Origin: Sphagnum magellanicum
Taxonomy: Eukaryota > Streptophyta > Sphagnopsida > Sphagnales > Sphagnaceae
Direction: 5' to 3'
Assembly (NCBI GenBank): GCA_021904315.1
Contig: CM038912.1
Location: forward strand, 18,749,061-18,813,060
DNA length: 64,000 nt
Both the position numbers and the translations under genes were made by a program. Position 1 is the stretch's first letter. Every line of letters starts with the position of its first letter. The notes beneath the pieces were generated by a model, which saw nothing but the letters and a program-made list of their open reading frames with translations, was not told where the DNA came from and ran no database searches. This document shows positions 9,345-64,000 of this stretch, in pieces.

Positions 9345-9567
9345 ATGGCGCCGTACGTGCCGTATCCGCCTGGACTGGGAAAAGTGGGCTATACGGTACC
9401 TGAGGGGCAGGAGGATGGACATGAGCACTTGGATCCACGCTTGCCTTTACTCCAACGCGCCGATCTCAAGGACAAAGTTGTGCTTCTCCGAGTCGATCAC
9501 AACGTTGTGAAGAAAGGTACGCTATAGATTCTGTCTGTTTGTGTAACTGTTCGAAACATGCACGTCT

Positions 9568-9607
<40 letters not shown>

Positions 9608-12450
9608 GAGAACAAGCCAGCAAGCCAATCGGAGATACATGTATGGTCGCTTAGAATGGTTCCGAGCTTGTGGAGAAAATTGGTTTGAATCATGCATCGT
9701 CATGTGGGTGGATGGCCGGGAGATCCTTGGACCAGGCAAGATCATGGATCAGTATCGGATTGAAGTCACCTTGGCAACCATGTACAACATCATCGAACGC
9801 GGTGGGAGGTAGGAAGCATGATGATGAACTTCTTGCAAGAACCCTTTTCTTGTTGTTGTTGTTGTTGTTGTTCTTCTTCTTCAGCCAGAAAACTTGGCTC
9901 TGGCATTTTGTTATTGCAGACTGATCCACACGCAAGTGTTTGATCCTCTGATGATGCATGCATGCATGCAACCCTTGGCATTGCTGTTGAATCTTGTTGG
10001 GTTTTGGCATTCTTCAGCCAGCAAACTTGGCCCTGGCATTCTGTCTTTGCAGACTGATCCAAAGGCTAGTGTTTGATCCTCCGATGATGCATGCATGCAT
10101 GCATTCAACCCTTGGGATTGCTGTCAAATCTTGTTGGGTTTTTGCTTTTTCTTTTTCCTGTTTTTTTGGGGGTGGGGGATTCACAGGCCAATCATCATGA
10201 CTCATGTTGGACGTCCGTATGACAAAAAAACTAAGATTCTGAGTGTGAAGCTTGAGGATGAATCCATTGAACCAGTGGTGGCATACTTGCAAAGAAAACT
10301 GCGCATCAAGTTTGCTGTCCCATTGTTCCATGTCACTGACAATGAAGGCATTCAGGACATTGACACCTCCATCAACTGGCTCATCAATGACCTTCGTGCT
10401 TGCAAAATTGGTGGCATCTACTTGCCAAACACTCGATGGTTTGCAGTAAGACCAATGCTCTTGATCAATGTTTTGCACAATCAAGCTCTCTCTCTCTCTC
10501 TCTCCCTCTCTTCCATGGGTGATGCTTTGTTTCATAATCTAGAGTATTATTCTGAGTGATTCTGCACACAATCAACTCAAAAAGCAAAAATGGGGGGTGA
10601 ATCTTTTCAAGCAAAAACATGTGCCTGAGAGCTTCATTTGGGATTTAGTTCTATGGTTTCCTTCAAAGTGTTGGAGGAAGTATATTTATATATCTCTAAT
10701 GGATGGCAGGGGGAAGAAGACAAAGGTGAAAAGATGGAGCGATTTGTAGTGCAATTGGCTGGAGTTGCAGATGTGTTTGTGAATGATGCATTTGGATCTT
10801 GGCAGCCTCATGCTTCCACTTACTACATCACAAAATACTTGCCATCATATGCTGGACTTTGCATGCAGGTATGCAGGTACTACTTACAGTTCTTTTCTAT
10901 CTGTTTGGTGTAAAACCCACTACAAGCTTTCTCTCTCAATGTAGACTTCTTTGCACCAAAGTAAAAATAATTTTCTTAAAAGGATTTTGTTGCATGTTTA
11001 TTAAAAGTCCAGCAGTGCAAAGCATAGGCTGAAGTTTTTTTTTGTTTGTCACTTTGTGGTGTGCAGAATGAACTGATTCATGTGCAAGAAATCCTCAACC
11101 CAAAACAGCCATTTCTTGCAATTGTTGCTGGTGCCAAATATGACACAAAAATTGGGCCATTGAAGGCAATGTACAAGAAAGTGGACAAGCTTATTCTTGG
11201 TGGGGTTGTATACAACACCTTCCTTTGTGCAAAATATGGTGTCAAGATTGAAGGTGTGGAGGTAAAAATATTTGTTGCAAATAAAACTGTAATCTCAGCA
11301 CTAGTGAACTGATAGAGTTCTTGCCATTTTGACAGTGTTTGTGGATTTCCTGAGGTCATTTATGTACTACAGGAAGTAGGCTGGAAATTCTGAAAAACCC
11401 ATTTTGAAAGAGTCTATTTTAAGTGTATGTCAGAAGGTAAGGGTGCTGATGGTAGGAAAGTGCACAAAGTGATGCAGGATTCAGATATTGCATTGGCAGA
11501 AGACCTGGTTGAGCAGGATAAGGTTGAACACAAAATTGTAGAGCTGCCATTTGTGGTTGAATCAGAAACACCTGAGGCACGAATTGAAGGGAAGTATCGC
11601 ACAATCAGCATCAAGGTTGGTTTGCACAATATCATTGTAACTGAGGCTCTTGATCTTTCCAGTGCCTGGCTAGACTTCCCACTTGTAGCCTGAAAATGTT
11701 CTAGAATGTTTCAGTTTTTGTATGGAAGAATCATTGCTGTACTCAATCATGTTACAACTGCGATCAGGTTCAAGATGCTCAGGGTAATTAATATCAAAAA
11801 CATCTGTTATCAGAATCTTACATTGGTTTTCACTCTGTATGAAAAACAGGACTTCACTCCAGGGAAAGAGTACAGCTACATTGTTGATGTGGATCCTTCT
11901 TCATTTGATGAACCACATGTGGTGGAGGCCATAGATTTGTCAAAGACCATCTTCGTAAATGCAGTGATGGGCTTAATGCCTCACTTCTGGCATGGCACTT
12001 ACAAGATGGATGAAATGATAGATTGCAATCGTTCTGCACAAAAGTTCTTCGGTGGTGGAGATACTCTGCAGGAATTTAAGAGGTGATAATGACTAGTCTT
12101 TTTTCCAGTTAGCATTTTGTGTGTGCAGACAACAACATAAGCATCCATCGACACACCCTTAGACATGAAAGCTTCTAAAACCCTAAATTCCACTTTCGGC
12201 AAAGAGTCATAGACTTGACATCTGTAATTTGACTCTTGCTGATGACAGTTGTGAATGTTGGTTGTTTGTGAAATGGGTTGGCAGTTTGCATCCTGGGCTA
12301 TATCAGAAAGCTCTGGAAAGTCCCAAGTACTACCTTTTCACCGGAGGTGGCACTGTTCTGAAGGTGATTGAAGAAGGGGATCCCTTTGCTTTACCCACAG
12401 TGAAAGCTCTCATTGAGAATGGGAAGCAATATGGTTACAACCCACAGTAG
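9345..12450 (+). CDS. PGK: Phosphoglycerate kinase, divergent form
   Basis: Eight exons: 9345-9516, 9736-9808, 10187-10445, 10710-10868, 11067-11261, about 11478-11615, 11850-12082 and 12285-12450. Joined, they give 464 residues in one frame. The enzyme moves phosphate between 1,3-bisphosphoglycerate and ADP. Family landmarks in order: LLRVDHNVVKKG (usually RVDFNVP), IIMTHVGRP (usually SHLGRP), LPNTRWFAGEE, VFVNDAFGSWQPHAST, AIVAGAKYDTKIGPL, LGGVVYNTFL, FVNAVMGLM (usually NGPMG), GGGDTLQEF and YLFTGGGTVLK (usually STGGGA). All core elements are present but changed, and the protein is longer than the usual ~400 residues. No obvious transit peptide leads the sequence, so a cytosolic site is likely. 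The start of exon 6 is uncertain: cag|GAT at 11478 keeps frame, and an earlier acceptor near 11429 with a different exon 5 donor would too. Introns hold GT/GA, GTT and CT microsatellites. Confidence 0.88.
9569..9608 (+). repeat. (GT)n(GA)n compound microsatellite in PGK intron 1
   Basis: A run of about nine GT dinucleotides is followed directly by about ten GA dinucleotides, inside the first PGK intron. Confidence 0.9.
9881..10146 (+). repeat. 133-bp tandem duplication in PGK intron 2
   Basis: Unit one begins at 9881 and unit two at 10014, both with 'tcagccag.aaacttggc'. Both carry 'ttgcagactgatcca', 'gtgtttgatcct', 'gatgatgcatgcatgcatgc' and 'aatcttgttgggttttt'. Similarity is roughly 85-90% by eye. 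The intron was therefore lengthened by a simple local duplication. Confidence 0.85.
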
Positions 12451-48732: not shown

Positions 48733-51700
48733 ATGGCGGGCATGTGTGGTGCTCCGCGGGTGTTGGCGCTGCTGGTATGTGTGGTCATGCTGCAGCTCTG
48801 GGTTGTCAAGGCTTTCTACCTGCCCGGCGTGGCGCCGCAAGACTTTGCAGAGGTTTGTTTGTTTTTTTTTTCCCACCCTGCTCTTTTTTCTTGCCTCTAT
48901 GCGATATGTTCGATTACTCTTAACTGAGAAAGAGCACAAATCATGGGAAAGGCCTTCTCCAACGTCTTTTTAATATGTGGCAACAAGTATAGCTAATGCT
49001 TAATAACTAGAACGACTAGATGAGAGATCTTCCTCCTTCTGGTATTCGCTTATCTCGTTTTCACAGAACTAGCGTGACGGAACTAGCTATTTGCAAATCC
49101 GATCTTTCTAGCCTTTCGTGACCTCCTTGAATAGGATTTGTTTGTTTTGGAGATAATGACATGTATAGTCTTTGATTCGAAATCCTTACTCTGTATCACA
49201 GTGCATAAAGTTCCCTTCAAGGGATCTGCACACAACGATGGCAGATTCGTTTCTTGCAGCCAAGTCTCTGCTGCCTGTCATCTACTCGACACATAGAGGT
49301 TTGCAAGTTGAAATCGGAAATTTGGCAATCAGTTTGTTGTCTCTGTTCATAGAGAAAAGACTATGCATTGGTTTACGATTTGGGCATAAAATTTGGCTCG
49401 AACTTGACCCAATTTGTGAGTGACATCTGGAGTACTATGTCGTGCATATGAAGGATGGGCATGTTCCATAGAAGGGCATGCATCTAGATGAGAAGTTGTA
49501 GATCCAGTAAGAGAAGTTTTTGGTTTGTAGTTTAAACCTCCCATGAAGGGCAGAGTCATATTCACTTCTAGATGAGAAGTTCTAGATCCAGTAAGAGAAA
49601 TTTTTAGTTTGTAGTTTGAACCTGTCATAAAGGCAGAGCCATTATGCAATGAGCTGTTTGTTCTCTTTGCCTTCCTCCTCCTGCAGTTTTTATCAGGCTA
49701 AATTTGTGCAGGTGAATGGGCTAATTTGATGGAAGAGGTTGGTGTGTACAGGGAGCACAACTTCTGGTGAAGGTGAACAAGTTGACATCAATCAAGACAC
49801 AGTTACCATATGAATACTACTCACTAAACTATTGTAAGCCTGAAAAGATTTTGAACAAGGCTGAGAATTTGGGTGAGGTTCTCCGAGGTGACCGAATTGA
49901 AAACTCTCCTTATGAGGTGAGGGCAATTTCTATGTTATTGAATGCTCCCTGCAAGGATGATATTTGCAATGTGTGAATACTAAGTCCCTTGTAGTGACTT
50001 CATGGCAAAAAAGAGTTGTGGTTGTGACAGTGGCTCCTGTGCATGGCAGTTCCAAATGAAGGATCACCAGTTGTGCAAGGTCCTTTGCCGGAAAAAGCTT
50101 ACAGAAGAAGACGTGAAGAACTTTCATGAGAAGATTGACAATGACTACCGTGTAAATATGTAAGTACCTTGGAAAGGACATGACTGCGCACAGAAGCTAG
50201 TTGCTTCTTTGATGCCTGTAGTTCTTTTGAGGGAGTAACCTTTTGTTACTTAAGTTGGTTGGAAGTGCTGGTATTGGCTCTGTCTGATATTTGTTGTCTA
50301 ATTTGTTTTGTCCTAGGATTCTGGATAATCTGCCAGTAGCAGAACCAAGATCCAGAAATGAGAATGGTCACCAATTGACCATCTATGAATGGGGGTTCCC
50401 AGTTGGCCGTAAGGACCCACCGGTGAGTGATCTCTCTTGTATCTGGTCACCACAACCTGCATTGAACTAGTTTATCATATATGTATGGATACTGAATGAA
50501 AATTATGACACTATTGAAAGTTGATTAAGTTTTGTCATCTCTTGCAGGGAGGCTCAAAAGAGAAATACTTTATTAACAACCATCTCAGCTTTCGAGTCCT
50601 ATATCACCAGGATACTGGTTCTCCCTATTCTCGTGTTGTGGGCTTTGAAGTGACTCCTCACAGGTTTGTGACCTGCTGATCTGACAATGGCCTCATGGAG
50701 TGTATCATTTCAAGGGCTTGGGTATAATATTAGTGCCAAGAAGTTGTTCTTTGACATTTGTGTTTGGGATCAATTAGCTGGCCACCACATCATTTGGGGA
50801 ATAGTTGAAACCCACCCAGGCCAGATTACAATTTGTAGATCTTGCTTTTGTGCATGTTCAAGGCTTGCAACTGTATGCATCGGTGTTTTATTGATTTCGG
50901 TTGAGATGTGTTTCTGTTGTTTAGTGTGAAGCATGAGTATGAGCGCTGGAATGAAGATAAAACCAAGTTGTTGACATGCAATCCACATGAGAAGGTTTGG
51001 GTCTCTGATACACAGGCTGCTCAGGAAATTGAGGTTGGTGCTGAAATTGTCTTCAGTTATGATATTAATTTCAAGGTACTCTTCACAAATCCATCTTTCA
51101 TCTGTGTTTCCCCTGGCACCTGTTTTGTTGTACTAGCCCATAATCTTGTTTGAGTTTTTGAGAGGTTTTCTGTTGAGAAATTATGTATGTGTATATGGGC
51201 CTGGGTTCAGGTCTTTAGTCTTCATGTGGTCTGTCGACACATTTGTGTGGGTTACAAAGTCTGGCATTAGAGATGGATCAATTATCTGCTTATGTCACGT
51301 GCGTACTTTAGCTCTTTCTATATTTGTGAGATTCTGTCCTCACTGTGTTGGTTCAATGGTGGTTACCTTGCAGATAAGTGACCTCAAGTGGGCATCAAGG
51401 TGGGACACCTATCTGCTCATGAATGAAGCCCAGATTCACTGGTTCTCCATCATAAACTCCCTCATGATTGTGCTGTTCCTGTCAGGCATGGTGGCAATGA
51501 TCATGATGCGGACTCTGCATCGGGACATTTCAAAATACAATCAGCTTGAAACTCAAGAAGAAGCACAGGAAGAGACAGGCTGGAAGCTTGTCCATGGGGA
51601 TGTGTTCAGGCCACCAGCCCAAGCTGGTCTACTTTGTGTATATGTTGGGACGGGGGTGCAGTTCTTTGGAATGGCACTTGTTACCATGATTTTTGCTGTT

Positions 51701-52531
51701 CTCGGGTTCCTGTCTCCAGCAAATCGTGGTGGATTGATGACCGCTATGCTCATCCTCTGGGTCTTTATGGGGTTGTTTGCTGGTTATGCTTCTGCTCGAC
51801 TATACAAGATGTTCAATGGCACAGACTGGAAAATGAACACCTTGAAGACAGCCATCATGTTCCCAGGGAAAATATTCGTTGTTTTCTTCATTCTGAACAG
51901 CCTGATTTGGGGTGAGAAGTCATCAGGGGCTGTGCCTTTTACTACAATGTTTGTGCTCGTGTTCCTCTGGTTTGGTATCTCTGTTCCCCTTGTCTTTGTT
52001 GGTAGTTATTTTGGGTTCAAGAAGCCAACAGTGGAGAACCCAGTGAGGACCAACAAAATTCCCCGCCAGATCCCTGAGCAAGCTTGGTACATGCACCCAG
52101 TGTTTTCGATACTTATTGGGGGCATCCTACCTTTTGGGGCTGTGTTCATTGAACTCTTCTTCATCTTGACATCAATCTGGCAGCATCAATTCTACTACAT
52201 CTTTGGGTTCTTGTTTATTGTATTTTTGATCCTTGTGGTCACTTGTGCGGAGATTACAATTGTGCTTTGCTACTTCCAGCTGTGTAGCGAGGACTACCAT
52301 TGGTGGTGGCGGGCATATCTTACTTCAGGATCGTCAGCAGTCTACCTCTTCCTGTATGCAGCCTTGTACTTCTTCACAAAACTCGATATTACGTTGATTG
52401 TGTCGGGTATCCTCTACTTTGGCTACATGATCATCATCTCATATTCATTCTTTGTGCTCACAGGCACAATAGGATTTTATGCTTGCTATTGGTTTGTGCG
52501 AGTCATCTATGCATCGGTGAAGATTGACTGA
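48733..52531 (+). CDS. Transmembrane nine superfamily (TM9SF/EMP70) protein
   Basis: Seven exons: 48733-48852, 49752-49916, 50050-50159, 50317-50422, 50548-50663, 50925-51075 and 51374-52531. They encode 641 residues in one frame. A signal peptide ([20 protein letters not shown], then A) precedes [11 protein letters not shown] and a lumenal EMP70 domain ([60 protein letters not shown]). Exon 7 (from residue 257) encodes the [14 protein letters not shown] block and then nine hydrophobic spans, ending [11 protein letters not shown]. The last residues contain KxD, the Golgi-retention type signal known for plant TM9 proteins. Length and order match Arabidopsis TMN proteins of the Golgi and endosomes. 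No defects were seen. The long frame running back to 51146 is read-through of intron 6, not an alternative start. Confidence 0.95.
49483..49650 (+). repeat. 84-bp tandem duplication in TM9 intron 1
   Basis: Units starting at 49483 and 49567 both read 'tctagatgagaagtt.tagat', 'ccagtaagagaa.tttt', 'ggtttgtagttt.aacct' and 'aagggcagag.cat' (first copy; the second has 'aaaggcagagccat'). Similarity is around 85% by eye. Confidence 0.8.
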
Positions 52532-62814: not shown

Positions 62815-64000
62815 ATGGGGTCCGGAAAGGATACATACAAGATAAAGAAATTCAACGGGACGAATTTTAGCTTTTGGAAGATGCAGATGGAGGACCATCT
62901 ATACCAGAAGGACTTGTATTTGCCGATAGTAGAAAAACCGAAGGACATGTCTGATGAGGAATGAGTGGTCGAACGTAAACCAGGAGGTATGACTGACCTG
63001 CAGTGGATGGTTTTGGACCAGAAAGCGCTAGGAGCAATTCGACTTAGTTTGTTGAAATCAATCGCCTTCAACATCAAGGGTCAAGAAACAGCGACAGATC
63101 TCATGAAGGCCCTATCGAATTTATATGAACAACCTTTTGCGGCAAGGAAGGTCCATCTGATAAAAAAATTAATAAATATGAAGATGTTAGAAAATCAGAG
63201 CTTCAAGGAGCACCTGAATGTGTTCAATGAGGTAACAAATGGGTTAAATTCAGTTTCTATAGTATTTGATGATGAAGTGTTGGTAGGCATAATTCTAGGC
63301 CAAATGCCAGAGAGTTGGAGCACGACATGCCAATCGATCGCCAACTCATTCGGAAAAGAAAAGTTAGCCTTCCAACAAGTCGTAGACATGATTATGACCC
63401 AGGAAATCAGGATGCGTGAAGAGGGATCAGGGGCATCATCTTCAGCACTGAACATGGAAGGTAGAGAAAGGAGAAACAAGAATCGAAATAGAAATCAACG
63501 AGGTAGATAAAAGTCAAGAGGAAAATCCAAGTCCAGGAATCGTCAAGGCAACATTTCAGGTAATCAGCAACGAAGCAAGAAAGACATCGAGTGTTGGAAT
63601 TGTGGCAAGATGGGTCACTACTCTAGTGAGTGTAAATCTGGAAAGAAGGACGATGGCAAGAGTAGTGCAAATTGTGTTTCAGAGGAGGCAGACGATTGCC
63701 TTATTTGCGCATTTGAAAGCAAGATGGAATCTTGGGTGTTAGACTCAGGAGCGTCATTCCATGCCACTTCACACATGGATTTGTTCGAGAATTATATCTC
63801 CGGAAATTTCGGTAAGGTGTATCTTGGTGACGATCAAGCATGCGACATTACCGGGAAAGGAGATGTGAAGATCCAGCTGAATGGCTCAGTTTGGAAACTC
63901 GACAATGTGAGACACGTACCGGACTTGAGAAAGAATTTGATCTCCATTGGGCAGTTAGCATTAGACGGCTATGTGACGACTTTCACGGGAGATAAGTGGA
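62815..64000 (+). pseudogene. Copia gag-protease polyprotein, broken and cut by the window end
   Basis: From ATG 62815 the gag begins YKIKKFNGTNFSFWKMQMED, the typical start of the UBN2-type Copia gag. It continues through ALGAIRLSLLKSIAF, LYEQPFAARKVHLIKKLI, FNEVTNGLNSV and GIILGQMPESWS. A basic region leads to a CCHC zinc knuckle CWNCGKMGHYSSEC (63592-63633). The aspartic protease motif WVLDSGASFH follows (about 63733-63762), and HVPDLRKNLISIGQL of the gag-pre-integrase region near 63916. Two in-frame stops interrupt it, TGA at 62962-62964 and TAA at 63508-63510, with no frameshift between. This copy is therefore probably not autonomous. Integrase, reverse transcriptase and the 3' LTR lie beyond the window. 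Confidence 0.9.

Follow-up and report, generated by a model that had tools for sequence, protein, structure and literature searches.

Phosphoglycerate kinase (PGK) is a core enzyme of both glycolysis and the Calvin cycle. The ordinary enzyme (PF00162), represented by human PGK1 and the Chlamydomonas chloroplast PGK (7zy7), possesses a two-domain fold, and this fold, together with the equivalents of the catalytic residues, is also found in the product of a gene of the moss Sphagnum magellanicum, located at 9345–12450 (+) of a 64,000-nucleotide stretch of the genome (C6:18749061-18813060; hereafter the window). However, the window protein shares about 26–35% identity with ordinary PGKs, WQPH replaces the ordinary HRAH, and NAVMG with a shorter loop lacking glutamate replaces NGPMGVFE, with insertions added in the C-domain. 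In the case of a divergent bacterial subfamily, which we label DHN-type (a name coined in this analysis) and which occurs in Desulfobacterota, Nitrospirota, Cloacimonadota, Bacteroidales, and others, the identity is 45–66% over most of the length, and the loop change and the insertions are shared with the plant copies, whereas in the plant the gene is split by seven introns and the protein is extended at the N-terminus by approximately 25 residues.

Two further systems are comparable in one respect each. The GTP-preferring PGK of Entamoeba histolytica is a precedent for altered nucleotide preference, and is described as canonical in structure (PMC7729029). In Gloeobacteraceae, a cyanobacterial case of a pgk gained by transfer, a foreign pgk_2 from an unidentified donor is reported to have replaced the native pgk_1 (PMC13237429). 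No description of the Sphagnum gene or of the subfamily was found among the titles and abstracts listed, and an earlier listing in supplementary lists of horizontal gene transfers in mosses is possible. It is quite probable, in our judgement, that the gene encodes a PGK isoenzyme of the divergent bacterial subfamily, which was transferred, gained introns, was duplicated, and has been kept in three copies. If a land plant has kept a bacterial second PGK alongside its ordinary ones through old duplications, this would be an unusual case of gene transfer into central carbon metabolism. The family-wide change of the nucleotide site, often in the sole PGK found, suggests a class of PGK that has yet to be characterised.

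Fold, active site, and nucleotide pocket

The window protein has the PGK fold. The Pfam profile PF00162 covers residues 37–439 (E=4.3e-80), with a score of 270 bits against a cut-off of 27 and positions 2–377 of the 379 in the profile matched, and 47 sequences of solved structures match at E<=0.001, every one named PGK (best 133 bits). A bifunctional PGK/TPI (NF010569) is rejected, as the score is 177 bits against the required 883 and the match, at 9–393 of the 645 profile positions, comprises the PGK part only. Structural comparison with viral proteins gave none at E<=0.001, viral contigs scanned with two DNA patterns for the gene gave no match, and automatic peptide patterns derived from the single window protein matched 24 contig stretches, none of them a relative. 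The subfamily motifs, RxDHN, NAVMG with a shortened Glu-less loop, GGDT, and FTGGG, are all present. The window protein is a member of the PGK superfamily and, within it, of a divergent subfamily that occurs mainly in bacteria; it falls outside the ordinary plant PGKs.

The active site was compared over 122 bacterial family rows, 13 rows of ordinary PGKs, and the three plant copies. All of these sequences agree at the positions equivalent to D23, N25, R38, H62, R65, R122, K215, K219, N336, G372, G373, and D374 in human PGK numbering, some of which were part of the DNA search pattern. The phosphoryl-transfer residues (R38, K215, K219, N336, and GGD equivalents) are intact in 3/3 plant copies and 122/122 relatives. 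The H169, R170, and E343 equivalents, which are held by 13/13 ordinary rows, are found in 0/3 plant copies; at the H169 position, W is located in 117 and Y in 5 of the 122 family rows, and the plant copies have W. Both Arg65 and Arg170 are named in PMC7729029. The enzyme would carry out reversible phosphoryl transfer between 1,3-bisphosphoglycerate and a nucleotide and would rely, as ordinary PGKs do, on an arginine/histidine patch, a pair of lysines, Asn, and GGDT.

On the nucleoside side, NAVMG takes the place of NGPMG throughout the family, and the loop that follows, as far as G[TS], contains seven residues in 123 of the 125 sequences and five in the other two, against nine residues after NGPMG in the ordinary PGKs shown. 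Glutamate, carried by this loop in ordinary PGKs (E343), occurs among its first four residues in 0/125 sequences. V, L, or I stands in place of the third Gly of GGG in 120/122 rows, and D, A, or H in place of G312 in 108/122. Altered nucleotide handling is to be expected, since the lost glutamate binds the ribose of the nucleotide. The nucleotide site has probably been remodelled family-wide, through the shortened FE loop and the changed Gly-rich contacts, and the family may differ from ordinary PGKs in the nucleotide that it prefers, in affinity, or in direction. The Entamoeba PGK is reported to prefer GTP (PMC7729029) and the Ruminiclostridium PGK to have no marked preference between GDP and ADP (PMC11955521); shifts in nucleotide preference therefore occur. 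A bolder and distinctly tentative possibility is that the whole divergent family constitutes a second PGK class with a nucleoside pocket rebuilt through loss of the Glu loop, adapted to GTP/GDP, another nucleotide, pyrophosphate, or very different nucleotide levels, and that the plant has kept its three copies as a parallel glycolytic energy-coupling step. If true, this step would perhaps serve oxygen-poor, waterlogged plant tissue. Many bacteria with the divergent PGK belong to anaerobic lineages.

Bacterial relatives and the origin of the plant gene

Prokaryotic genomes, one per species, were scanned with a DNA pattern (DHNV...HxGRP at fixed spacing), which gave at least 118 loci; DHN and HxGRP, as the search criteria, are circular as family traits among these loci, and were not criteria for 28 rows obtained by protein searches in the order of the L107 genome and in the Nitrospirota phylum. 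At E<=1e-5, 116 of the 118 listed loci have an open reading frame (ORF) resembling the plant protein. Among the matches listed, L107, titled Desulfobacteraceae, ranks first with 65.4% identity over 428 amino acids; Nitrospirota reach 63%, and Bacteroidota and Cloacimonadota about 45–57%. The 118 titles comprise Bacteroidota (31), Nitrospirota (25), Cloacimonadota (22), Thermodesulfobacteriota (16), Myxococcota (9, a label derived from 'Deltaproteobacteria' titles), Spirochaetota (3), Pseudomonadota (2), and Planctomycetota, Delongbacteria, and Acidobacteriota (one each), with no phylum for seven; none of these matches carries a cyanobacterial label. The divergent family spans at least eight bacterial phyla as titled. 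Within the order of the L107 genome, 66/85 genomes match the window protein at 1e-30, ten of them at 64–66% identity, and the match of five of the 66 is only to ordinary PGKs, at 33–35%. In the phylum of one Nitrospirota genome, 46/295 genomes match at 1e-100 (best 63%). Identity to ordinary bacterial PGKs is about 30–35%. One divergent PGK (L092:2308-3621) lies on a contig titled Candidatus Altiarchaeales archaeon and groups with mostly Bacteroidota rows, which reflects either contamination or transfer.

The 118 listed loci gave 102 ORFs whose alignment spans 400 residues or more with an identity of at least 42%; the 16 shorter ones were left out. Of these 102, 76 entered the first tree, along with the window protein and a set of seven ordinary PGKs; the second contains 65 bacterial family rows (28 of them new, after three duplicates were dropped), the three plant copies, and seven ordinary PGKs, four from the host and three from bacteria. 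In the second tree, the plant copies form one clade (100/100), which falls together with Desulfobacterota rows in a set of 15 rows (98/90). In both trees, a 100/100 branch separates the subfamily, plant sequences included, from the ordinary PGKs. A clade of the plant copies with the four ordinary PGKs of the host is rejected, with a log-likelihood lower by 166 and a p-value of 2.4e-7 in the approximately unbiased test (p-AU). Membership of the divergent family is shown by these sequence comparisons, and the place within the subfamily is less sure.

The host assembly (438,994,042 bases, 31 contigs) contains three intact divergent copies, on C6 (the window gene), C12, and C8, of 464, 468, and 474 residues to the next in-frame stop, each with an ATG start, its own stop, and no internal stop. 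The positions and phases of their seven GT-AG introns are identical in all three. A fourth divergent copy, on C7 (L157, G000:C7:10226500-10235500), has decayed, with stops and missing exons. Four ordinary PGK genes are also present (C6, C10, C16, and C17), with no internal stops over the aligned part, as well as a decayed ordinary fragment on C4 (L158, G000:C4:7300000-7309000). Bacterial contamination or an assembly artefact would account for the bacterial similarity of the protein and for nothing else, and is hardly conceivable: the spliced structure with its seven GT-AG introns and the copies, three intact ones on three contigs and one decayed, already refute it, and the window lies on a 26-Mb contig with an EMP70 gene and copia-type elements.

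Between the C6 and C12 copies, the ratio of nonsynonymous to synonymous divergence (dN/dS) is 0.10 at a synonymous divergence (dS) of 0.52; between C6 and C8, it is 0.066 at a saturated dS of 2.6, and dS is not computable between C12 and C8. With low dN/dS and saturated dS between copies, the divergent copies are therefore under purifying selection and split long ago. None of the seven intron positions (0 of seven) is common to the divergent copies and the four ordinary host PGKs; a candidate shared intron was rejected because the nearest pair lies one codon apart. If contig numbers equal chromosome numbers, C6, C12, and C7 would belong to one ancestral chromosome group (PMC9946827), and the C6–C12 dS of 0.52 falls between the two published Ks (synonymous divergence) peaks. 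The neighbouring EMP70 gene gives no syntenic support for a whole-genome-duplication origin of the copies, and 15.5 kb of the C12 flank has three short matches only to the window.

The plant gene was probably moved from a bacterium long ago. Its most likely source is a bacterium close to the Desulfobacterota/Nitrospirota members of the subfamily, from which an ancestor of the Sphagnum host would have acquired it; the transferred gene would then have gained seven introns and later been duplicated, with purifying selection keeping three intact copies beside the four ordinary PGKs. Several tree results weigh against this direction or this donor. Attaching the outgroup to the branch of the plant copies lowers the log-likelihood by only 0.02 units (p 0.52), the grouping of the plant copies with Nitrospirota has p 0.065, and the support of the plant–Desulfobacterota branch is 90/53 without the outgroup. 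With so distant an outgroup, the direction therefore rests on the breadth of the family in bacteria and on midpoint rooting, in which the plant copies are nested within bacteria. A root on the plant branch, or old vertical inheritance from an early eukaryote or streptophyte with both types and loss of the divergent type in most lineages, would agree with the p of 0.52 and with the age of the copies evident from the saturated C6–C8 dS. Such a history is nevertheless unlikely, given the occurrence of the family in at least eight bacterial phyla as titled, the proximity of the plant copies to one bacterial subset rather than an equal distance from all, the midpoint root, and the lack of any intron position in common with the ordinary host PGKs.

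An earlier note on this DNA, made from the letters alone, had proposed a divergent prokaryotic PGK group and an old transfer with later gain of introns, to be given up if a tree placed the gene within the normal plant PGKs. No such tree was obtained, and the tree instead places it in that bacterial group, with up to 66% identity to Desulfobacterota and 63% to Nitrospirota. The proposed age agrees with the saturated synonymous sites between two intact copies, and the later introns with the seven positions common to three copies and equal to none in the ordinary host PGKs. The standard PGKs which the note wished to see looked for in the same genome are the four described above.

The divergent type as a probable working PGK

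Among 27 genomes of relatives tested with PF00162, 11 contain the divergent type only. In the order of the L107 genome (85 genomes of unstated completeness, with the types sorted by bit score and by protein-search matches), 73 have a PGK match, and 55 of the 73 have the divergent type only. Ordinary PGK is found in 16 of the 73, five of which also have the divergent type; of the remaining two genomes, G104 has the divergent type and an ordinary-looking fragment, and G053 is too short to call. The GAPDH C-domain is strong (over 180 bits) in 48 of the 55, weak in three, and absent from four, and GAPDH is found in 79/85 genomes of the order overall; the absence of ordinary PGK can therefore not be put down to missing sequence alone. 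A phosphofructokinase ORF lies 18–89 bases from the divergent PGK, in the same orientation, in four Nitrospirota loci; a single one of these ORFs was scanned with Pfam, and the others cluster with it.

As the sole PGK found in many genomes, accompanied by GAPDH and by a phosphofructokinase neighbour, the divergent type would perform the PGK step there, and its position as the sole PGK found in 55/73 genomes of one order indicates that the divergent form is very probably a working PGK. Two observations speak against this. An ordinary PGK is also held by 16/27 genomes of relatives, and many of the bacterial genomes are drafts. Moreover, the R170 equivalent is Gln in 112/122 family rows and in 3/3 plant copies (R in 6 and G in 4 of the remaining rows), and Arg170 aids domain closure in human PGK (PMC7729029).

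In the plant, the expressed protein might no longer be a PGK but a regulatory or moonlighting protein, or a kinase for another substrate. The changed nucleotide-site residues, which are conserved in ordinary PGKs, and the presence of four ordinary PGKs in the host would fit such a role. However, the residues for phosphoryl transfer and most of those for 3-phosphoglycerate are intact in the three copies, the same changes occur in bacteria where the divergent type is the only PGK found, and dN/dS is low, so that a loss of PGK function appears quite unlikely. The plant gene would encode a working, probably cytosolic PGK isoenzyme of the divergent bacterial subfamily. The first 33 residues of the window protein contain five acidic, two basic, and one Ser/Thr residue, and a cytosolic location is suggested because this N-terminus is unlike a chloroplast transit peptide. 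Given the four ordinary PGKs, the divergent copies probably serve particular conditions, and a role in the low oxygen of waterlogged tissue is speculation.

Further arrangements were seen in the bacterial relatives. Two divergent subtypes occur together, with no ordinary PGK found, in G001 (L107 and L104) and in G030. A fusion of two complete ordinary PGK domains, encoded by one ORF of 795–846 amino acids, exists in L003:3643-6096, L056:2907-5312, L087:1630-4029, L101:2832-5216, and in G014 and G025, under the titles Bacteroidales, Bacteroidetes, Delongbacteria, Aminicenantes, and Holophagaceae; it adjoins the divergent PGK in L003, L056, and L101, and occurs in 5/27 genomes of the relatives tested with PF00162. 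A conserved operon was not found among the members scanned (one per cluster). The recurrent neighbours, including formyltransferase-like, peptidase C25, DUF3187, PFK, and methylmalonyl-CoA mutase, differ by phylum.

Exon structure and flanking features

The gene consists of eight exons and seven GT-AG introns with an open frame of 464 amino acids. The eight-exon model of the earlier note holds, with its start, its end, and an open joined frame. Spliced alignment templated on the same protein, and thus not independent of the gene model, gives the same junctions, and these are gap-free in an alignment of the window protein with 21 bacterial relatives and one ordinary PGK. All exons lie on the + strand and are placed by the gene model and this alignment, with additional evidence as indicated. 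Exon 1 (9345..9516) contains the start codon, the N-terminal extension, which by composition lacks a transit-peptide look, and RVDHNVV. Exon 2 (9736..9808, 73 bp) encodes KIMDQYRIE...IIERGG with the R38 equivalent, and its length is identical in both other intact host copies; alternative acceptors that lengthen it are rejected because the relatives run KKGKI without insertion. Exon 3 (10187..10445; also spliced alignment) carries THVGRP and LPNTRWFA. Exon 4 (10710..10868; also residue table) carries VNDAFGSWQPHAST in place of the ordinary HRAH, and exon 5 (11067..11261; also residue table) carries AGAKYDTK, with the K215/K219 equivalents, and LGGVVYN. The family-specific C-domain insertion (KIVELPFVVESET..EGKYRT) is located in exon 6 (11478..11615). 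Exon 7 (11850..12082; also residue tables) contains the NAVMG loop, shortened at the ordinary FE, and GGGDT, and exon 8 (12285..12450) contains FTGGGT, the C-terminus, and the TAG stop.

The altered landmarks that had first drawn attention, RVDHNVV, THVGRP, NAVMG, and FTGGGT, are all present in the window protein, and from the comparison with the relatives these changes are family traits rather than decay. The protein is also longer than usual, as had been remarked, with 464 amino acids against about 400 in the aligned part of the host ordinary PGKs; the extra length is formed by the N-terminal extension, the C-domain insertion, and a longer GGDT-to-TGGG segment. Intron 2 contains a direct duplication (9819-10148), in which 9819-10011 and 9949-10148 agree at 81% over 201 columns and the copies overlap. 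Elsewhere in the window, a long open frame at 51137-52528 encodes an EMP70 (TM9SF) protein with paralogues on C6, C12, and C18 at 88–89% identity, and the fragments at 62965-63999 comprise copia-type gag and a Pol beta-barrel of a long terminal repeat (LTR) retrotransposon.
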